Positions 2,370-45,565 of a stretch of DNA of 64,000 nucleotides are shown piece by piece. Both the position numbers and the translations under genes were made by a program. Each line of letters opens with the position of its first letter. Positions within the stretch are counted from its first letter, which is position 1. The stretch is from a virus, in IMG/VR virus record IMGVR_UViG_3300042542_004481, positions 1-64,000 of that record; one strand, written 5' to 3'. The notes under the pieces are model-generated. The model was not told the origin of the DNA. It ran no database searches and saw nothing but the letters and a program-made list of their open reading frames with translations.

Positions 2370-3659
2370 ATGAAAACAGAAATCTTTGAAAAGATAGCCA
2401 AGGCAATTAGCGAGTATAAGCAAGAAGGATTAATCATATTTCAGGATAGTCCTAAATTATATAGCCTACACTCTCTGACAGAAACAGATGAGTATAAGCA
2501 CTATATGTTCTTTATGAGTAAATCCTATGGCTATGAAGAACAGCTTGAAAGGGCAAAGGCTAACCTCAAAAAGGATAGCAACGTCTCATCTTATGCACCT
2601 GCTCCTATTAAGCAGTTCATATCTCTCAAATACGATAAGGTTAAAGACAAGATATCTTTAGCCAGATACGAAGTAGGATATGGATATAGTCACCGGCAGA
2701 AAAGATATTACCCTCACCGGAAAAACCATCCTTTGTTATGCTATAGCAATCACCTGTATTCCTTTATCCCATTACCGAAAAGTATTGGAAGCGGGAAACT
2801 TATACGGATTGCTACGCCGAACAATACACCAGAAGATTTTGCCAAACTTATGGCCAAAGTAATCTATCCTGAGCTATCCTTAGAATACTATCAGTTCTCT
2901 AAGATACCTTTCAGATATCTGAACGGTACAGATAACCAGTTAGATGCTTATGAAAAGATGTCCGGAATAAAGATACCGCAGGCTCTCAAACGATTTGTTC
3001 CAGAATCAGTAATAGAACTGATCAGCGTTCTTAAGAATCCTAACGAGCTTAATACAATCTGTCAGTATCTCTCTAAATATCCAAACAATATCCAAGAGAG
3101 AAGCCATTATCATGGTGATATATTTTGGCAATATATATCTGATATGTTATTTCAGGATCGCGGAGAAAGTGATTGGTTGGTTAGAGATTGGGTAAATGAT
3201 CATCGCAGCCTAGGTCGTAAACTTAGCCTTAAGATATCATCCAAGAAAAGGATGATCGACGAGCACAATAAAATGAGCGTCGAAAGAATGGCTAAGAAAT
3301 CCCCTGAAATAAAGGTGGCCGGCATGTACAAGAATATGTTCAAGAGGTTCCCTATCCAGGGAGCAGAACTGATTCTTGAGAAGGAAAGATTGGTACAAGA
3401 ATCTGTAGAACAGAGACATTGCGTAGCAAGCTATGCCCATAAAATCAATGCGGGCCAGTGTGCTATCGTATCCATTCCCTATAACGGTGAACAATATACA
3501 TTGGAAGTTGCAATAGATTCTGACTCACATATGTATAACGCTCAGCTTAGAGGTAAATGTAATGTGTCTGCACCAGAAGAACTAAACAATAACCTTAATA
3601 AGTTCTTCGCAGAATTTGCAGGGAAACCTGTTCCATCTTGTCCGTCGCTTCCATTCTAA
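2370..3659 (+). CDS. PcfJ-like protein
   Basis: This 429-residue protein has a C-terminal half matching the PcfJ-like domain, named after a plasmid conjugation gene and common in phages and mobile elements. Key signs are the block EQRHCVASYAHKINAGQC at about residues 347-364, then an alternating strand with YTLEVAID and QLRGKCN. Conserved His-Cys and Gln-Leu-Arg-Gly positions are typical of the family. The N-terminal 300 residues are helical and not recognised. The biochemical role of PcfJ is unknown. It has its own leader (AACTCAAACACTCTCTCAC before the ATG), and a terminator-like hairpin follows at 3692-3737. Confidence 0.75.
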   Translation: MKTEIFEKIAKAISEYKQEGLIIFQDSPKLYSLHSLTETDEYKHYMFFMSKSYGYEEQLERAKANLKKDSNVSSYAPAPIKQFISLKYDKVKDKISLARYEVGYGYSHRQKRYYPHRKNHPLLCYSNHLYSFIPLPKSIGSGKLIRIATPNNTPEDFAKLMAKVIYPELSLEYYQFSKIPFRYLNGTDNQLDAYEKMSGIKIPQALKRFVPESVIELISVLKNPNELNTICQYLSKYPNNIQERSHYHGDIFWQYISDMLFQDRGESDWLVRDWVNDHRSLGRKLSLKISSKKRMIDEHNKMSVERMAKKSPEIKVAGMYKNMFKRFPIQGAELILEKERLVQESVEQRHCVASYAHKINAGQCAIVSIPYNGEQYTLEVAIDSDSHMYNAQLRGKCNVSAPEELNNNLNKFFAEFAGKPVPSCPSLPF

Positions 3660-3691
3660 GACCTGAGGTAGTCAGCATAGGACCACAGGTG

Positions 3692-3737
3692 AGGAACCTC
3701 GGCCGGTAATCATACCAGCCGGGGTCAACCTCTTTTC
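3692..3737 (+). terminator. Probable intrinsic terminator
   Basis: CGGC-C-GGT pairs with ACC-A-GCCG (3701-3722, one mismatch). An outer GAGG/CCTC pair (3692-3695 with 3730-3733) leads directly into TTTT. It closes the PcfJ-like gene. Confidence 0.55.
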
Positions 3738-3767
3738 AATCATTGTTTAACTCAAAACTTATATCAC

Positions 3768-4052
3768 ATGGAGACTGCTCAAAAATCTTTTAAGCTTGCA
3801 ATCGTAGACGAAACATCATCATCTTTAATAGAAGCTCTTGGTATGTCCCAAGAAAGAGCTCAAGAGCTAGGTACTAAAATCAGAAAAGTTTTCGTAGTTT
3901 CAGAAAAGATTACTCAAGCCGCAGATATTGTGACAGCAGATTGTCGTCACGAAAACGAGTTATTGTTTTGCTACTACTACATAGCAAAGCTGCAAGATCA
4001 AATGAATAATCCTATTGAGGCTTTGTTGAAAAAGATAGGCAATAAAGAATAA
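3768..4052 (+). CDS. Small hypothetical protein ending inside a ribozyme
   Basis: The product has 94 residues and is mostly helical, with no signal or membrane segment. Two Cys occur (ADCRHE, LLFCYYY). Family not recognised. The start at 3768 follows the leader TTAACTCAAAACTTATATCAC, which resembles the leader of the preceding gene. Its last stop-codon base (4052) is the first paired base of a hammerhead ribozyme. Self-cleavage would therefore trim this mRNA about 54 nt after the stop codon, leaving a cyclic-phosphate end. Confidence 0.65.
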   Translation: METAQKSFKLAIVDETSSSLIEALGMSQERAQELGTKIRKVFVVSEKITQAADIVTADCRHENELLFCYYYIAKLQDQMNNPIEALLKKIGNKE

Positions 4053-4112
4053 GTGTACTGATGAGTCTTTAAGAGACGAAACGCAAAGATTTTATATCTT
4101 TGCGTCTGCACT
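4052..4112 (+). ncRNA. Type I hammerhead ribozyme
   Basis: All invariant core positions are present: CUGAUGA at 4058-4064, GAA at 4078-4080 and a GUC cleavage triplet at 4104-4106. Stem I pairs 4052-4057 with 4107-4112 (6 bp, one G-U) and is the open stem. Stem II is GUCU/AGAC (4065-4068 with 4074-4077). Stem III starts with the A4081-U4105 pair and runs 10 bp to U4090-A4096. Cleavage is predicted after C4106. The element sits exactly between two reading frames. Hammerheads are known in phages and gut metagenomes; activity here is inferred from the perfect fit. Confidence 0.9.
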
Positions 4113-4114
4113 GC

Positions 4115-4306
4115 ATGAAGTTAGCCGGGTACACGCCATGCGAGCGAACCCTGCCAGATCACCGGATCTGTGATGACAGCTACCAGGTAGCTAATTCTAA
4201 ACCGGTAACAATTTTAACGGATGCTCGCAGCAATACCCTCTATCTAAAAACGAGAAGTGGCATCCCGACTAGAACTAAAGGATACATCAGCAAACTCTAT
4301 CTATAA
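4115..4306 (+). CDS. Possible 63-residue protein just after ribozyme
   Basis: An ATG at 4115, nine bases after the predicted ribozyme cleavage site, opens a 63-codon frame beginning MKLAGYTPCER and ending GYISKLYL. The composition is protein-like (basic, strands such as PVTILTD and NTLYLKT) and it has two Cys. Family not recognised. After cleavage its mRNA would have an 8-nt leader and a 5'-hydroxyl end. Alternatively the stretch is non-coding structured RNA: GCGAGC (4140-4145) can pair with GCTCGC near 4223, and two local hairpins (ATCAC/GTGAT, AGCTA/TAGCT) lie inside. Confidence 0.4.
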   Translation: MKLAGYTPCERTLPDHRICDDSYQVANSKPVTILTDARSNTLYLKTRSGIPTRTKGYISKLYL

Positions 4307-4322
4307 AACCGATAGGTGAACC

Positions 4323-4411
4323 GGGGAGACCTGCTGCAAAATAATTCGCGGTGGTACCGTATCCTGTAATGTTCTAAACCCGTCGCCTATGAAAGGGCGG
4401 CGGGTCTCCCC
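4323..4411 (+). ncRNA. Folded leader RNA upstream of Ro60-like gene
   Basis: GGGGAGACC (4323-4331) is the exact complement of 4403-4411. A second strong hairpin inside pairs CCCGTCGCC (4379-4387) with 4396-4404. The two share G4403-G4404, so they could be alternative folds or form one extended rod. Between them lies GGTGGTACCG (4350-4359), ten bases identical to the core of the T-box antiterminator consensus. No stem I or specifier loop was recognised, so a tRNA-sensing role is unproven. It could be a regulatory leader or an RNA partner of the next gene product. Confidence 0.5.
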
Positions 4412-4413
4412 AA

Positions 4414-4440
4414 AAATTTAAACCTGACAAATTTAAACCT
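4414..4440 (+). repeat. Tandem AAATTTAAACCT repeat in leader
   Basis: AAATTTAAACCT occurs at 4414-4425 and 4429-4440, three bases apart, ending eight bases before the ATG at 4449. It may be a translational leader or a protein-binding site. Confidence 0.5.
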
Positions 4441-4448
4441 ATCAACCT

Positions 4449-5834
4449 ATGAGCACTCTCGTGAACGCTATGCGCCAATATGATTCTACTACAGCCAACG
4501 GTGCTGTGACACACTCTACCTCACTCTCTCATCTTGTAGATATGTTCTTTCTAGCAGGTGCCAGCAGGAACATGTCTGAGATGGCCATCACTACGGTCTT
4601 CGAACGCGCTTATGCGGAAGATCCAAACATCGCAGCCAAGATTCTATTCTGGTCTCGTGATGCGCGTGGTGGTGCAGGTGAGCGCAGATTCTTCCACATC
4701 GTTATGAAGCATATCGCACAGACTCGTCCAGAGATCTTCGAGATGCTCATTATCCATACGCCAGAGTTTGGCTATTGGAAAGATGTATTCGCTATAGATA
4801 CGCCTAATCAGGATACCCTGAACTGGCTCTCTACGCAGCTAGAAGAATCTTCTAACCGTAATCTTCTTGCCAAATGGTTTCCACGTAAAGGGCCATGGTT
4901 TACAGCGATGCACAAGTATATGGGTATTACACCCAAAGACTTGCGCAAGAAGTTGGTAGCCATGACCAAGGTCGTAGAGACACAGATGTGCCAGAAGAAA
5001 TGGTCCGATGTAGAATATGACAAGGTTCCTTCGATTGCCATGAACCGCTACCGTAATGCTTTCTTTAAGCATGACCAAAAGCGTATGTCTTCTTTCATAG
5101 AAGATGTTAAGTCTGGCAAAGCGAAGATCAATGCCTCAGTATTGTTTCCTCACCAGTTGTATCAAGCAATTGCTCGAGGAGATAATGCCGATGCTGTAAC
5201 AGCACAGTGGAACGCCCTGCCGGATTACATGCAAGACAGCACAGAAAGGATTCTTCCTGTATGTGATGTCAGCGGTAGTATGAGCGGGCTTCCCATGGAC
5301 GTAAGTGTTTCTCTCGGGATCTATATCTCTGAGAGAAACAAAGGTATCTTCAAGGATGCCTTTATTACGTTTAGCCAATCCCCAGAGATGCACTACCTCA
5401 AGGGTAGTCTTCCTGAAAGGATGGTGCAGCTGAACAGCAGCGAGTGGGGTATGAATACCAACCTTGAATCTGTATTCAATCTTGTGCTTAACAGCGCTGT
5501 AAGAGAGAACATACCACAGACCGAGATGCCTACAAAGATCCTTATCATATCTGATATGGAGTTCGATGAGGCTTGCGGTACCGGAACAAACCTTGATGCA
5601 ATCAGATCTAAGTACCAGCAAGCTGGATACGAGATGCCTGAGATCATCTTCTGGAATGTGAACGGTAGATTGGGTAACTCTCCAGCGAATGTTAGCGACA
5701 AGGGGATCGGACTGGTATCTGGCTTCAGCCCATCGATTCTTAAATCTATCCTCAAGGGTAAGATTTATGGACCGAATCAGCTGATGTTGGATACGGTTAT
5801 GGTAGATCGCTACAAGGCTATACGCATTGACTAA
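4449..5834 (+). CDS. Ro60/DUF2828-like protein, TROVE-type helical domain plus vWA
   Basis: This 461-residue protein has an N-terminal alpha-helical repeat region of about 230 residues with RDARGGAGERR and the EFGYWKDVF signature of the DUF2828/TROVE-like class. A C-terminal von Willebrand A domain follows with an intact metal site, DVSGS (D273, S275, S277). Related Ro60 proteins form a ring that binds misfolded RNA and Y RNAs. By analogy this could bind a phage or host RNA, but RNA binding is inferred. Codons are richer in G and C than in neighbours, suggesting high expression. It follows a structured leader and a tandem repeat, and hairpins follow the stop. It could instead act only as a vWA scaffold. 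Confidence 0.7.
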   Translation: MSTLVNAMRQYDSTTANGAVTHSTSLSHLVDMFFLAGASRNMSEMAITTVFERAYAEDPNIAAKILFWSRDARGGAGERRFFHIVMKHIAQTRPEIFEMLIIHTPEFGYWKDVFAIDTPNQDTLNWLSTQLEESSNRNLLAKWFPRKGPWFTAMHKYMGITPKDLRKKLVAMTKVVETQMCQKKWSDVEYDKVPSIAMNRYRNAFFKHDQKRMSSFIEDVKSGKAKINASVLFPHQLYQAIARGDNADAVTAQWNALPDYMQDSTERILPVCDVSGSMSGLPMDVSVSLGIYISERNKGIFKDAFITFSQSPEMHYLKGSLPERMVQLNSSEWGMNTNLESVFNLVLNSAVRENIPQTEMPTKILIISDMEFDEACGTGTNLDAIRSKYQQAGYEMPEIIFWNVNGRLGNSPANVSDKGIGLVSGFSPSILKSILKGKIYGPNQLMLDTVMVDRYKAIRID

Positions 5835-5899: not shown

Positions 5900-5930
5900 G
5901 GCTCGGGGAAACCCGGGCCTTTATATTTTA
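5900..5930 (+). terminator. Intrinsic terminator
   Basis: GGCTCGGG pairs with CCCGGGCC (one G-U) around a GAAA tetraloop, followed by a T-rich tract. It ends the Ro60-like transcription unit; the next ATG follows at 5936. Confidence 0.75.
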
Positions 5931-5935
5931 CCGCT

Positions 5936-6385
5936 ATGAAAGAAAAAGATAAAATCACAGTAGACATCACTAAGGATGAGATAACTCACTCGCTCTCTAA
6001 ATGTATAAAGCACGATAGTGCTAAGCTTTTGGCAGAAACCATTATTGGTATAGCGAGTACTACAGAAATCGGATTAGAGCTAATCTATAAGGCGATGCAA
6101 GGGTGGGAAAGAAAGTTTGATTTCAAAGTGGGGCAGAATATCCTTATCCCGATAGAAAACACCTATACGTGGAAGATGAATAAAGAAGCTACTAAGAACG
6201 ATCCTAAGTATTCAAAGGACGGTTATATCAAAGCTGTAATAACAGGTATAGACGCTTATGCCCGCGAATGCTATAGACTATCTTATAGTTATGTAGACGA
6301 CAAGGGAGAAGAACATACTCAAACAGACTATACATTAGACGGTAGAGTATTCTTATTACCAGACGATTTCCCGTTTAGCGAATAA
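5936..6385 (+). CDS. Hypothetical protein
   Basis: The product has 149 residues. The N-terminal 55 are helical (LSKCIKHDSAKLLAETIIGIA). The C-terminal part looks like a small beta barrel (KVGQNILIPIENTYTWKMN, YIKAVITGIDAYA, YRLSYSYVDDKGEEH). The gene lies between a terminator and a 106-base spacer. The family was not recognised. It contains no signal peptide. The layout, helices then a beta domain with conserved aromatic residues, would fit a small binding protein, but nothing specific can be claimed. Confidence 0.65.
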   Translation: MKEKDKITVDITKDEITHSLSKCIKHDSAKLLAETIIGIASTTEIGLELIYKAMQGWERKFDFKVGQNILIPIENTYTWKMNKEATKNDPKYSKDGYIKAVITGIDAYARECYRLSYSYVDDKGEEHTQTDYTLDGRVFLLPDDFPFSE

Positions 6386-13420: not shown

Positions 13421-13526
13421 AGTCAGGTGGCGGAATTGGTAGACGCTATTACCCTAAATAGTTACTGCGATGAGTGGGGTAAACTCTGGGAGATGTAACA
13501 TACAGGTTCGAATCCTGTCCTGACTA
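13421..13526 (+). tRNA. Leu-like tRNA element with long variable arm
   Basis: A 7-bp acceptor stem (AGTCAGG/CCTGACT), a textbook Leu-type D-arm (GCGGAATTGGTAGACGC) and a perfect T-arm (ACAGG, TTCGAAT, CCTGT) are present. The anticodon arm is irregular: CTATT/AATAG leaves six loop bases, or TTACC/GGTAA needs a 17-nt insertion. A long arm follows with GTTAC/GTAAC enclosing GAGT/ACTC. CTA rather than CCA follows the acceptor. It may be a class II tRNA with a nonstandard anticodon or an inserted element. The anticodon is unassigned. Confidence 0.6.
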
Positions 13527-37600: not shown

Positions 37601-40600
37601 TTATTGTGAACTACTTGAACTTGCCAAGGTTGGATTGTTTTTGGTAGCTGTTATAGGGTCTAATGTACCACCGGTAAATCCGACAGACTTCCAGAAACTT
37701 GTCCAAAGCTTAGAGCCTCCTTCTTTTTGCCACTCGTATGGGCCGGAGTCTTTCTGATATCTAGCATACTGATTACCGGTAGCTTCCATATAAGCAAGCT
37801 CAATCATCTCTTTATAAGTCTTCAACGTAGCGCCGAAACTTAAAGAGCTTGCATCAGTGAAAGTCTCATAATAGTTATCTAAACCAAATCCAGGGTATGG
37901 TACAAACGCTTCGTTTTCTGCTCTAACCTGAAGGGCCATAAGAATAGCATGGTTGGTAAGCCATCCTCCAGCATTCCAAGGATGCTCGGGATCTTCAGGA
38001 GAAAGACCAAAGAAAGGCAAGTTACCGCTACGCTGACGCATCTTTTCATATCTATCTGGATCTGTAGGATCAAATCCTAACATTGGAACTAGGACACTAA
38101 GAATAGCCAATAGACCAATTATCTCTACTACGGTTTTCTTCCAAGCAGCATGCTCTTCCGGAGTCATGTGAGCCCAGTTCTCTGTACCGTATTTAAAAGT
38201 ACGAGAGAGCATCTTAAGAGTTGTAACATAGTAACCCTCTTGCATATCGCCTAAACCGGGATTGTATCTACCTCGCTTAGGCCCAAACATGTTTCCACTA
38301 AAGGCCCAACGATTAATAAACATCGGGGTAAAGTAACGCTTAAGAAAGGCAATCATTCTATAAGCCAGATAGCGCGCTGCTTCCGGTTGATCAAACTTAT
38401 CATAGGCACCGTTAAGGTTCATCTGTACTGTATGGAACCTATTACGGAAAGCCTTATAAAGCAGATTGTCAATCTTAATTTCTTTTCCGGTTTTAAAAGA
38501 CTGGCCTTTGATAGATTGTTGGAGATCCTCTTTAGTCATATTAAACTTCTTGGCAAGAGATTCTAGTGTATCGCCATCCTCTAGTGTATAGTTAGTAGGC
38601 ATGTTACTATAACGAACATCTATACCATCTTTAAGTTTAAGTTGACCGTCCACCTGTTCCCAAGCTTCCATATAATTAATCTCTTTACCATCACGTGTAA
38701 TCTTCTTTTTATACATCATGCCGGCAAAGAGCTGCAGTGCAGCTTCATCTTCTGTCCACTTTCTAAAATTGGTCAGATAGCTGAAGTTAGCTACATCATG
38801 CAAGAAAGTACGAGATAAAGATTCAGGGAGCTTAGTTTCTGCTCTACCGCGAATAGCATCAAATGAATCTGCTATTTGCATATTCAAAGGCTTAGGTCCG
38901 CGAGCATAAGTATTAAAGGAAACCTGAGACATTGTATTAAATGCCCAGCCTTCTCCTTTAGCCATAGAAATAGGATCTATATCTATACCTCCTGCAGACA
39001 TAATCATGCCTTGGTATTTAGCACCTAAAACGTTTTTTATAGCGCTAGGAAAATTAAGGGCGAAGAAAGCAAGAGAGCTTCTGCTAAGCATCATCTTTGT
39101 AACATTCTGTAAGAAAGGCATACCCGCTGTCCAACCCACATCTGTAATACCCTCAAACTCTCTTTCTATAAAATTATTAACCGCATACTGCCTTACATAT
39201 TTACCCTTCTTATTTAAGTAAGTCATGATCCCTCTATGCATAAAGTTGAACTTGTTGATCTTGTTCATCTCTTTAGCAAAGTTATCCGGGTTGTTAAGAG
39301 TAGATTGTAAAGCTCTAGCTACAGGATTAATTTCAATAAGCTTCTTCTGACGCTCTGCTGAGAACATGTAACGCATCAGAGATTGGTTTACATCCGGAGA
39401 CACGTCGTTGATATCCAAATCGTAAAGACCTGTGATAGGTACACTAGCTACCTCATTATCAAACATGTCTGCACGAACAAGCATAGCATCGTCTTCCCAA
39501 GCGTAACCCTCACCTTTTTCATCTTTAGCTTTACGGAAGAAGTTTTTAAAACGTTCTATCATAAGCTGAAGAATAGGGAAGTTATCTTCACCAACATCGC
39601 CTGCTATAGCGGATAGCTTCTTAGTACGGAGAACCTCTAGAGCATTTTTTCTATATCTAGGAATATCAAGATAGAGTCGGCTTCTATATGACAATCCTTC
39701 TTGATTCCGGAGATGATGCTCCTTCATCTTTTCAAGGATAGCATAGTGCTTAGGATCTGTACTCTGCATATTCAAATAGTCCTGATCTATATAAGGGCTA
39801 TTTGGTATGTCCAGTCGAGGTAGGAAGTTCCCCTGGTTATCTACAGTATTGCCTATGATTCTTTCAGTACGATACTGAGGCTTTACAACACGGCTATAGT
39901 ATTTCATTGCCGGCAAACCTTTTATAGTATAAGATCTGCCATCTGCGCGTGTTACTACAGTCTTCTCATAAAAATCTTCATTAACCGGACGGGTTACATT
40001 CCACACATATATTCTTTGCCATACAGGTTTCTTTGCACCAAGCTCCTGATCATATACTTCTTTCTGGATATGGTTAGCATAGAACCAAGCATCGAACTCT
40101 GCGCTCTGACCAAGAAGAGAATTAATCACGTTACCCTGCAAGATTAGATCTGCAGATTCAGATGTGATGTTATTAGTATTCATGATTCTCATCATCTGAG
40201 CTGTATCAAGTTTGCTCAGCTGATTATTCATGATCAGGCAGTAATAAGTGGTGGCCTCTTTTTTACGTAAGCCATCAAGCTTAGCAAATGAAGCAAAGAG
40301 TTTTTCTTTTTGAAGTTTACTAAGACCTGTATTATCAGACTTGTTTCTAAGATTATTAAAGTCGGATTGTTCTGCAGCACTAAGAGGTACCTTGTTATTG
40401 ATCTGGTCCCAGTAGTAACTGTAACGAGAAGCTTCATCTTCGTTTAATCCGGACAGATTAGCAAACCCTTTCATCATCTCATTGAGAAGCTCTTGCTGCT
40501 GTTTGATAAACTCTATACCTTTTTGGGTAAAGTTCATACCATTAGGCTGACCGTCATCATCACGGTTACCTGCAACAAGATCCATAATCTTAGAGTAAGT

Positions 40601-43600: not shown

Positions 43601-45565
43601 GGAAGCTTTGGCATAATCTTTATTTTTAATAGCTTTATACCAGTCTTTATATCTGGTTCCTGTAATACCATCTCCTGGTAAAATCAAAGCTTTTCCATTA
43701 CTAACCTCTACTACACCATAACGATTATAGTTATATGAAACAATAGATCTAGCTTTTACATTATCTTCAGTTGCTGGAACTATCCATTCCGCATCACCAA
43801 AAGAAAATTTATCAGATCTAAAATTTGTCTTAATTAGTCCGTTTGGCTGAAGAGTCCCATCTACATCTATATCTTCTGTAGTTTCTTGGCCTGTAGCCGG
43901 ATCTATATATTTTAATGTAAAGGTTGCCTCTCTATAAGCCTTAGTATTTCTTTTATTTTCTTCAAGCTTAGCAACTTCATCAAATATAGCATCTGAAAGA
44001 TTATCATAATTACTAGTTCTATACTGAGGAGTCTTGCGTGTAGTATACGAAAAAAGTTGTCCTCCAACAGGAGCCATCTGAGCTACAAAGAGAGGTCTTA
44101 AAAAATGACCAGGATCTTTTAATATATTACCAAGTTGTGCATCTGGACTCACGCCGTAAGTATTAGGATCATAACCTCTTCTGTTACCTAACATCCTTTC
44201 ATTAAGATCACTTACAAAGCTAGCAATAGCAGATCTAATGCTGCCTTCAGTACTAGTGGCAAAGTTGTTATATAGTCTAAATCTTGCATGGTTATTGAAA
44301 AAAGTTTGTAAAATAATCTTTACATATCTTAAACGAGGCTCATCTAAAATCTGTTCATATTCTTCAAACGTAAGAGGTCTACCTAAGAGAGTTTTTTTCT
44401 CTTTAATCTTTTGATAAACATACTTTAAACCTGTTTCAATCTTAGGAGTAGTCATGTTAGGCGCTATTCCTGCGTCTACATAGTTTCTATACCAAAGAAG
44501 AGCCTCTTGTACTTTCTTTAAAGCTTCTTCTTGAGCTGTTGTAAGATAAAAGAAATTTTCTCCTAGCTGCACAAGCTTTACATCGTTGGAATCCATCTGG
44601 TTATATAAAGATGTAAGCTCTAAAATCTTATTATTGATTTTTTCTATTTCAGGTTTAGCAGGACTTAACTCTCCTGATTTTACTGCAATATTAGGATTAG
44701 CAAGAATAATAGCTAAGTCATCAAGAGAAGCATCCGGAGAAATATTAATAGCGTCAATATTTTGAACACCTCCCAACAACATATTTTTAATTGTTTCCCA
44801 AATCTTTCTTAAAGCTTTAGATAAGCTTTGAAGGGTTTTATCCCTACTTACGTGGTCATCTTTAAACTCGCCATTATCGTCATAAAACTCTGCAGCAAAC
44901 CTACCCATCATTTCTACCATCAACTCTTCTATCTGGTACACTTCTGCAGCTTCCCTTTGCTTATCATTAAGTCCTTCAGGAATAGGATAAAGAGCTTCTA
45001 TAATAGCAAACTCTTCTTTGTACTTAGCCTTAACTCGATACTTAGTAACTTTTTCTCCAGGCCTTACCTCTTCTGTATAAGAATCAAACATCTTATTAAG
45101 AAGGCCGAAGTAGAGTCTGGTATTTTCGGCCTTAACCATATTGAGAAGCACGTGGCCAAACTCATGTAAAGGAGTGTCTTTGCTAGCCTTTGCTCCATTG
45201 ATTATAATTGTAGGCTTGCCTCCTACAGCTCTAGGGTCTGTAGAAGGTACCAATACTCCCTTAAAGTTCTCATTAGGAAGATTCTCTATCTTATAAGCAT
45301 AGCCCGGAAACTTAGCAGTAAGTGTTTCTGCCAGCTTTTTTAAAGCATTTAGATCTGCCGGAGGAATACTATTCTGAGTTCTTTCTAGCTGATACTGATG
45401 AGCCGGATAGATAGAAGTAAGTACACCTTCTGACTGAAGCTTGCTTTTTACTTCGGAAGGAGTACGTATTTCGCCACCAGTTTGTAGGTAGTCTCTGTAT
45501 GCCTGAAAGGGACCTACCTCTTTTACGAGGAGATCCCATTCTGGACCAATAGGGCATGCTTGCAT
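37601..45565 (-). CDS. Giant virion-type protein with two zincin modules and LysM
   Basis: The product has 2654 residues. HEFGH (134-138) and HEFSH (887-891) are two zinc-metallopeptidase sites, each followed by an acidic helix and a helix pattern ending '..ml..lfG'. The middle is long helical coiled coil. Near the C-terminus is a LysM-like unit (YTLEDGDTLESLAKKF, about 2326-2368) that could bind peptidoglycan, and a membrane helix (about 2478-2498, EIIGLLAILSVLVPML). In crAss-like phages the corresponding giant genes encode capsid cargo that is ejected with the DNA. It starts five bases after the RNA-polymerase gene ends, so they form one operon. Confidence 0.75.
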   Translation of the reverse strand: MQACPIGPEWDLLVKEVGPFQAYRDYLQTGGEIRTPSEVKSKLQSEGVLTSIYPAHQYQLERTQNSIPPADLNALKKLAETLTAKFPGYAYKIENLPNENFKGVLVPSTDPRAVGGKPTIIINGAKASKDTPLHEFGHVLLNMVKAENTRLYFGLLNKMFDSYTEEVRPGEKVTKYRVKAKYKEEFAIIEALYPIPEGLNDKQREAAEVYQIEELMVEMMGRFAAEFYDDNGEFKDDHVSRDKTLQSLSKALRKIWETIKNMLLGGVQNIDAINISPDASLDDLAIILANPNIAVKSGELSPAKPEIEKINNKILELTSLYNQMDSNDVKLVQLGENFFYLTTAQEEALKKVQEALLWYRNYVDAGIAPNMTTPKIETGLKYVYQKIKEKKTLLGRPLTFEEYEQILDEPRLRYVKIILQTFFNNHARFRLYNNFATSTEGSIRSAIASFVSDLNERMLGNRRGYDPNTYGVSPDAQLGNILKDPGHFLRPLFVAQMAPVGGQLFSYTTRKTPQYRTSNYDNLSDAIFDEVAKLEENKRNTKAYREATFTLKYIDPATGQETTEDIDVDGTLQPNGLIKTNFRSDKFSFGDAEWIVPATEDNVKARSIVSYNYNRYGVVEVSNGKALILPGDGITGTRYKDWYKAIKNKDYAKASEIANNHGVLRDIQDLKAVIDMPNRVLEVMGRVIDTVSSLFADADYAGIEFTPASGSSSIRDSGEERERIYNLMFARTFGRYSTVKVGDRGHSMIVPTWYRSSLNVNQPVFQLDRTPDSIQEFAESTDTSLATVAIEPMRASISVTPETTSNTKGISGLKALLRNLANKLYAKALANQFMVGQNAIKYEFIDAAEAAEITKNKTNPWNGEKAFFIGDTVYFVGDRVTMGDMFHEFSHPFVRSLYYQNREMFNKIYRDLLKTPEGLALYRQMKIDYPELSETDPLFAEEMIVRTLTAASGMEQRGEAKSDSFASVLKDLMFALRQMLRQFFGKSINASKLTPNTNIVDLVNMLKEGQVFEIADEALEDIDTVAYIRDTNQYVTDLLRISKPELIGLTVRAHDIALKQIDAVSRNRNYEEIASLLADEFKRGDLQEMKRNLSKFAKPLEDKLRQKRDEVEYNKAHATAMVNTFFRLQNMTDKIRGHMLELSKDKDNIDNMHKAVYYNYLLDYWSKYIAEVIKTMNEAGVPTSNPLYSLVTSIDGNIKGTQKYTKDIYERGSRDVIYSQLMPMAENIDKRYKGIIQRLKDRNASPKLIDSWMVEYTGLTQVENDERDTLQSLKDQGKSTFEQNKRLAALDKKSLDGAQITEQKIEKALKGELKDGNVFNAFFEGYMYSADPVVGGFALYVKNQMSDVMNKAMGKFNDYARDMAPLLKAAGYSGANVNALIERVARVEKIGRINEKGEWEERDVWTLKSAHKNWRIDLDRARYKVDEAHKEYSQHNTDETYKALIQAIADRKKLLRDYFHQEYQAKVYARDYMLEQGYRVVTINGKQVDVGLEAAYLKDRLFELMGEITNSNTSQLDELQTSDKMDDLWRQYHQLFSLVDANGKMKTGLDKEIAVLLKEYREASKDPDTGESYFEWKPRTGLFENSMAQFEQELAQRFAPGSPAYEREFSRWVRKNSRVAIKKEYFDEIRSIMADIESIMSKLPDSTKKKYAISETYSKIMDLVAGNRDDDGQPNGMNFTQKGIEFIKQQQELLNEMMKGFANLSGLNEDEASRYSYYWDQINNKVPLSAAEQSDFNNLRNKSDNTGLSKLQKEKLFASFAKLDGLRKKEATTYYCLIMNNQLSKLDTAQMMRIMNTNNITSESADLILQGNVINSLLGQSAEFDAWFYANHIQKEVYDQELGAKKPVWQRIYVWNVTRPVNEDFYEKTVVTRADGRSYTIKGLPAMKYYSRVVKPQYRTERIIGNTVDNQGNFLPRLDIPNSPYIDQDYLNMQSTDPKHYAILEKMKEHHLRNQEGLSYRSRLYLDIPRYRKNALEVLRTKKLSAIAGDVGEDNFPILQLMIERFKNFFRKAKDEKGEGYAWEDDAMLVRADMFDNEVASVPITGLYDLDINDVSPDVNQSLMRYMFSAERQKKLIEINPVARALQSTLNNPDNFAKEMNKINKFNFMHRGIMTYLNKKGKYVRQYAVNNFIEREFEGITDVGWTAGMPFLQNVTKMMLSRSSLAFFALNFPSAIKNVLGAKYQGMIMSAGGIDIDPISMAKGEGWAFNTMSQVSFNTYARGPKPLNMQIADSFDAIRGRAETKLPESLSRTFLHDVANFSYLTNFRKWTEDEAALQLFAGMMYKKKITRDGKEINYMEAWEQVDGQLKLKDGIDVRYSNMPTNYTLEDGDTLESLAKKFNMTKEDLQQSIKGQSFKTGKEIKIDNLLYKAFRNRFHTVQMNLNGAYDKFDQPEAARYLAYRMIAFLKRYFTPMFINRWAFSGNMFGPKRGRYNPGLGDMQEGYYVTTLKMLSRTFKYGTENWAHMTPEEHAAWKKTVVEIIGLLAILSVLVPMLGFDPTDPDRYEKMRQRSGNLPFFGLSPEDPEHPWNAGGWLTNHAILMALQVRAENEAFVPYPGFGLDNYYETFTDASSLSFGATLKTYKEMIELAYMEATGNQYARYQKDSGPYEWQKEGGSKLWTSFWKSVGFTGGTLDPITATKNNPTLASSSSSQ

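Follow-up and report, generated by a model that had tools for sequence, protein, structure and literature searches.

Organization of the locus

We analysed a window of 64 kb (positions 1 to 64,000) from a 77,222-base virus record, IMGVR_UViG_3300042542_004481, of the IMG/VR database. Along a short part of its plus strand lie an open reading frame (ORF) for a 94-residue protein, a type I hammerhead ribozyme motif, a leader RNA with three hairpins (H1 to H3), two structured modules built around the motif CAGCA and a gene for a Ro60-like protein. Coordinates are collected in Table 1, and loci in other records are designated by L numbers.

The original prediction had described a hammerhead with a complete invariant core, three stems of 6, 4–5 and 10 bp, and a GUC site predicted to be cut after C4106, with stem I starting on the final base of a stop codon and the cut nine bases ahead of the next ATG. 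Each of these features was found where it had been placed. The minimum-energy fold is exactly the expected structure (−19.4 kcal/mol, z about −4) and reproduces the three stems, the cut site agrees with the hammerhead consensus, 4052 is the last base of TAA, and C4106 lies nine positions before the ATG at 4115. The core and UH site are present and the three stems surround the core with stem I open, as in type I hammerheads. A search with the full motif (CUGANGA, a 4-bp stem II, GAA, a UH cut site and 4 bp or more in each of stems I and III) returned a single copy in the 64 kb, both strands included, and none in 150 dinucleotide shuffles of the window.

The best sub-threshold Rfam model was RAGATH-1-hammerhead (RF03152), which scored 32.6 bits (E 0.0022) where gathering requires 56.3. 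Hammerhead_3 (RF00008) gave 24.6 bits against 48.5, the topology here being type I, and Hammerhead_1 (RF00163) had no gathering-level match in the window and was absent from the sub-threshold listing, from which overlaps within a clan are removed. As the Rfam score alone would leave doubt, relatives were examined.

Conservation and covariation of the hammerhead

Further ribozyme loci were sought by gathering relatives of the downstream Ro60-like protein and by pattern scans. An intact hammerhead was found at the same place in three other phage contigs (L007, L024 and L071). The window, L007 and L024 show double-sided compensatory changes in all three stems; when L071 is included, stem I is 100% paired, while every sliding control reaches 50% at most. 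The RAGATH-1-hammerhead score for L007 is 35.5 bits. Conservation, set beforehand as a test, was thus borne out. The original prediction was to be abandoned if a sub-threshold covariance score coincided with non-conservation in related phages; the low score was indeed obtained, but the element is conserved. Judged from its sequence, 4052–4112 is a genuine hammerhead of type I topology with a predicted cut after C4106.

A fifth copy, in L072 (555–611), has an extra U ahead of stem II and no predicted hammerhead fold; it looks damaged and may have lost its activity. There, a homing-endonuclease-like ORF terminates at a TGA within the CUGAUGA core, and the stem II side looks rebuilt.

Two other loci, L022 and L027, carry hammerheads of other phages in a different context and without the shared leader. 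The L022 copy (5909–5967, minus strand) stands directly before a purine-rich stretch resembling a ribosome site, and L027 has two hammerheads, at 5584–5640 and about 6715, spaced about 1.1 kb apart. Further pattern matches were discarded as chance occurrences (L017, L019, L021, L023, L025, L026, L028, L031, L033, L038, L040–L042, L048, L049, L069 and L070).

The genes on either side

The ribozyme had been predicted to lie between two genes. It does directly follow the upstream ORF, but the next ATG opens no conserved gene. We rejected ATG 4115 as a gene start because its reading frame is not conserved: in relatives the frame ends after 10 (L024), 13 (L029) or 15 codons (L007), and the ATG is replaced by ACG in L003, L071 and L072. 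The Ro60-like gene begins 334 bases past this ATG, beyond the folded RNA. A relative of the 94-residue upstream protein, for which no PHROG match was obtained, also precedes the ribozyme in L071 (36% identity, E 1e-14), and further relatives lie near L074 and L001.

A pistol ribozyme precedes the same leader in related phages

An alignment of 11 loci defined the leader that follows the predicted cut, with the consensus UGCANUGCAYGARGUU plus a hairpin. Hairpin H1 covaries across these loci, being 98% paired with 12 compensatory cells, a value reached in 0 of 500 shuffles. The leader is common to hammerhead loci and to ten other phage records in which a different catalyst, the pistol ribozyme, directly precedes it at the equivalent position. 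Seven of the ten exceed the pistol gathering score of 34.5 bits (L003, L029, L030, L034, L037, L039 and L043) and three fall below it (L032 and L035, 33.9 bits each; L047, 28.9 bits), although L030/L039 and L032/L035 are near-duplicate contigs and independent cases are fewer than these counts. L003 shares the Ro60-like gene and the modules with the window but has a pistol before the leader (42.8 bits). No pistol ribozyme is present in the window itself. In pistol cleavage, G attacks the following U, leaving a 2',3'-cyclic phosphate and a 5'-hydroxyl (5'-OH) end (PMC4604425). With the cut marked by a slash, the junction reads GUC/UGCACUGCAUGAAGUU in the window and GG/UGCACUGCAUGAAGUU in pistol loci; L071 deviates, with GUC/GGCAAUGCACGAAGUU.

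The two catalysts are structurally unrelated, and these phages therefore have in common where the cut falls and which leader comes after it. Selection seems to act on the folded leader having a defined 5'-OH end and not on the class of ribozyme, because an unrelated ribozyme would make an equivalent end in related phages. Two unrelated classes at one site before one leader constitute strong comparative evidence for the 5' end as the purpose.

The same loci bear on whether this stretch is conserved as a promoter. The sequence TATCTTTG (4095–4102), in stem III, fits a Bacteroidota-type −7 box, TAnnTTTG, which would place a transcription start near U4107; at the same place L007 has TATCTTTG and L024 has TATATTTG. 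We hold this explanation to be extremely improbable, as it has no −33 element, the box shows no enrichment across the window (43 observed versus 61 expected) and is missing from L071 and from before the leader in pistol loci, and the hammerhead core and its covariation would be left unexplained.

Ten exact matches to the leader hairpin pattern in bacterial and archaeal genomes were judged to be due to chance because no ribozyme precedes them. An Rfam search of 3600–4500 (E up to 5) returned only the ribozyme and a weak minus-strand match to a small nucleolar RNA, leaving the downstream RNA without a family.

Genomic context of the ribozyme and leader

What lies upstream varies. A protein gene ends at or near the ribozyme in the window, L071, L003, L034 and L047, whereas the neighbour in L007 and L043 is another structured RNA element. 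At least six pistol records carry a GOLLD-like RNA (E 1e-20 to 1e-32, sub-gathering in Rfam) immediately 5' of the pistol, the gap at some loci being no more than a few bases; judging from this arrangement, the pistol may separate GOLLD from the following transcript. No match to GOLLD RNA (RF02032) was found in the present record. Downstream, the Ro60-like gene follows, with unchanged module order, in each of the five hammerhead loci and in L003 among the pistol loci; in the other pistol loci, different ORFs follow. Such varied neighbours fit a ribozyme that detaches the transcript with the structured leader from any sequence preceding it.

They would also be expected if ribozyme and leader were a mobile or hitch-hiking cassette moving among phage intergenic sites without any special tie to Ro60. 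Different genes and RNAs stand before the leader and, in pistol loci, different ORFs after it, the Ro60-like gene is missing from most of the pistol records, and homing endonuclease ORFs occur near some copies (L007 and L072). Since every hammerhead locus, and L003 as well, nevertheless runs into the Ro60-like gene with its modules in unchanged order, we consider such a cassette unlikely.

A further element resembling a three-way junction, TGCACCA...CTCA..CCAAGGGTGAGCAGTTGTAAT...ATTACAACTGAGTGCAGAGG, recurs in these records, with no Rfam match seen. Its placement differs: it comes ahead of the hammerhead in L007, separates GOLLD from the pistol in L043 and L034, and follows the modules in L024.

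Table 1. Positions of the features described (window coordinates unless a locus is named).
Feature	Position	Strand	Basis or remark
Upstream ORF, 94 aa	3768–4052	+	TAA ends on first base of stem I
Type I hammerhead ribozyme	4052–4112	+	Sequence versus consensus, fold, motif search, relatives
Hammerhead stem I	AGUGUA 4052–4057 / UGCACU 4107–4112	+	6 bp, one U.G
Hammerhead core CUGAUGA	4058–4064	+	
Hammerhead stem II	GUCU 4065–4068 / AGAC 4074–4077	+	4 bp, fifth pair in predicted fold
Hammerhead core GAA	4078–4080	+	
Hammerhead stem III	4081–4090 / 4096–4105	+	10 bp including A15.1-U16.1
Predicted cleavage site C4106/U4107	4106–4107	+	C17 = C4106; consensus N-U-H before cut
Leader of downstream RNA, begins UGCACUGCAUGAAGUU	4107 to about 4192	+	Alignment of 11 loci; shared with pistol loci
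Leader hairpin H1	4125–4153	+	Covariation
Leader hairpin H2	4155–4170	+	
Leader hairpin H3	4178–4192	+	
CAGCA module 1	4219–4265	+	Helix 4219–4225/4259–4265, CAGCA 4228–4232
CAGCA module 2	4271–4411	+	Outer helix 4271–4275/4371–4375, helix 4279–4285/4359–4365, CAGCA 4288–4292
Module 2 pseudoknot	4323–4330 with 4404–4411	+	Strands complementary in eight loci
Ro60/TROVE-like putative RNA-binding protein, 461 aa	4449–5834	+	DUF2828 + DUF7788, PHROG 850, fold match
GOLLD-like RNA	L029:3926–4325; L030:3518–3916; L034:641–1036; L037:2320–2717; L039:1646–2044; L043:37–436		
Three-way-junction-like element	L003:3625–3725; L007:3485–3590; L024:930–1080 (minus); L043:445–600; also L002, L005, L034		

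The Ro60-like protein

Phage Y RNAs have been reported near Ro60. Phage Ro60-like proteins are likewise already known (PMC7824862); Ro-like genes are annotated in mycobacteriophages, and at least 680 phage records encode a Ro60-like protein. The downstream protein of the window belongs to a PHROG annotated 'RNA-binding protein' and has the Ro60/TROVE fold, a helical-repeat ring plus a von Willebrand A domain. Its AlphaFold2 model (mean predicted local distance difference test score, pLDDT, of 84) retrieved TROVE or Ro60 structures as the top three Foldseek matches, and its VIA-align alignment to 1yvp (Z 19.2 over 398 residues) exceeds every single-domain von Willebrand match. The Pfam TROVE model does not match the ORF, for which only the two DUF families are listed, and we therefore term the protein Ro60-like and not a TROVE family member.

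A general tie between Ro60-like genes and ribozymes was rejected: no gathering-level ribozyme lies near the Ro60-like gene in nine INPHARED phages or in L013, which confines the link to this phage group. In L072, an apparent group I intron with its own ORF splits the Ro60-like ORF from 2250 onwards (about 44333–45289 of record G019), and the protein continues after it.

CAGCA modules

Between the leader and the Ro60-like gene, both modules follow a common design, in which the 7-bp helix is succeeded by two bases and then CAGCA, with a loop leading to the closing strand. In addition, GGGGAGAC within module 2 is able to form a pseudoknot with GUCUCCCC, located past the module; the two strands vary in sequence among eight loci yet remain complementary. 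Enrichment was measured in 16 phage loci left out of the module definition: module density within 1 kb of the Ro60-like gene is about 12-fold that found further off (18 in 32 kb versus 6 in 131 kb), with 3 near the gene and 2 further away in the antisense control. This enrichment supports a Y-RNA-like role, and from their sequence and position we read the modules as putative Y-RNA-like binding sites for the Ro60-like protein.

Tandem CAGCA helix modules also adjoin the Ro60-like genes of Aeromonas, Mycobacterium, Listeria and Staphylococcus phages (L062:1619–1870, L067:6482–6730, L063:4712–4900 and L064:6542); these are possibly phage Y RNAs. Before the 94-residue gene of the window, a structured intergenic stretch (3660–3735) has CAGCA flanked by a 7-bp helix (CTGAGGT/ACCTCGG) and is possibly a third module.

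A proposed role in setting the 5' end

We think it fairly likely that the hammerhead cuts a longer transcript and so provides a defined 5'-OH end for a structured leader or Y-RNA-like RNA before the Ro60-like gene. Assuming co-transcription of the region, the ribozyme would fold during transcription and cleave after C4106. As it directly follows the upstream ORF, the upstream RNA would have the ribozyme as its last part, terminated by a 2',3'-cyclic phosphate. The downstream RNA would begin 5'-OH-UGCACUGCAUGAAGUU and continue through the hairpins and the two CAGCA modules into the Ro60-like message, and its Y-like part, freed by cleavage, would be bound by the Ro60-like protein. The likely benefit would be a leader or Y-like RNA released from its neighbours and resistant to 5'-end-dependent decay, which a folded leader with a 5'-OH end would probably slow.

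Several observations weigh against this proposal. No Rfam hammerhead model matches the window at gathering level, and at E up to 5 the Rfam Y RNA models do not match 4219–4411. Intact hammerheads number only four; moreover, several loci are near-duplicates and all are metagenomic contigs. The Ro60-like gene is missing from nine of the ten pistol records, L003 alone having it, so Ro60 cannot be the whole reason for the arrangement. Finally, the first five bases after the cut lie in a stem of both ribozymes, and their match is therefore partly a ribozyme constraint; the next eleven leader bases and H1 lie outside both, except the first of the eleven, which is in hammerhead stem I.

An active ribozyme might, alternatively, simply uncouple the Ro60-like messenger RNA (mRNA) from the genes upstream, the downstream RNA being merely its 5' untranslated leader and the CAGCA hairpins providing autoregulation. 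The modules stop about 40 bases short of the ORF, which they precede at every hammerhead locus, with no terminator or second ribozyme seen in the sequence between, and in pistol loci other ORFs directly follow the same leader. Separate small RNAs, however, fit better with the several modules at some loci and with those located after the gene in L067 and L064, and we regard a plain untranslated leader as rather unlikely, if plausible.

RtcB substrates include cyclic phosphate and 5'-OH ends. Cellular Ro60 genes can adjoin rtcBA (for the RtcB operon, PMC7790460), which would suit rejoining of the cleavage ends by a ligase into circular or spliced RNA. No RtcB or RNA_ligase family gene was found in this record or nine relatives, which may be incomplete, and a motif search of the window found no second ribozyme on the other side of the RNA; rejoining is therefore not favoured, and we rate it very improbable.

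The proposed setting of a 5' end might extend further. Tentatively, and with more doubt than conviction, hammerhead and pistol could be viewed as an interchangeable device for making 5'-OH ends, with the leader as a cap-like protection of Ro60-associated RNAs and messages and the ribozymes splitting phage non-coding RNA arrays, such as GOLLD, from what follows.

Comparison with known ribozyme and Ro60 systems

Hammerheads are known from bacteria and phages; in haloviruses HF1/HF2, HHphage lies 13 nt ahead of a start codon (PMC3088659). The present element shares with them the core, three-way junction, type I topology and phage intergenic position, and differs on two counts: its product would be a leader, structured and conserved, that precedes a Ro60-like gene, and another ribozyme class can substitute for it. 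RAGATH-1-hammerhead, although the best model, remains below gathering, and the model's 5' hairpin is unformed here. Pistol was first detected close to genes adjoining hammerhead and twister ribozymes (RF02679; PMC4604425); it has a different fold but the same end chemistry and, in the ten related records, the same leader. Theta (hepatitis delta virus-like) ribozymes, which adjoin transfer RNAs (tRNAs) in gut phages (PMC10879173), are likewise small phage ribozymes proposed to process phage RNA; theta ribozymes set the 3' ends of tRNAs, while the present element would define a structured leader at its 5' end.

As in bacterial and phage Ro60/Y RNA systems, a Ro60-fold protein lies beside small repeated structured RNAs, although without an Rfam Y RNA match, and ribozyme processing of such RNA was not found described. 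Nor did the literature, incompletely covered, yield any ribozyme described as serving a Ro60 locus. The hammerhead is of a known kind, while the interchangeable ribozyme-leader cassette appears to be undescribed in the searchable literature, whose coverage is incomplete and in which an earlier description is possible. These observations bear on the role of bacterial and phage hammerheads, and connect small ribozymes with the Ro60 system of phages and, via the pistol relatives, with GOLLD RNA.

Other features of the window

The minus strand at 37601–61723 holds three giant ORFs of 2654, 3511 and 1871 aa, the two largest having no convincing PHROG match. A crAss-like identity, guessed from these ORFs, was rejected: the DFDGD motif was not found and DNA polymerase matches were mixed. 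At 13421–13526, a tRNA missed by ARAGORN was detected by Rfam, only with a long insertion.
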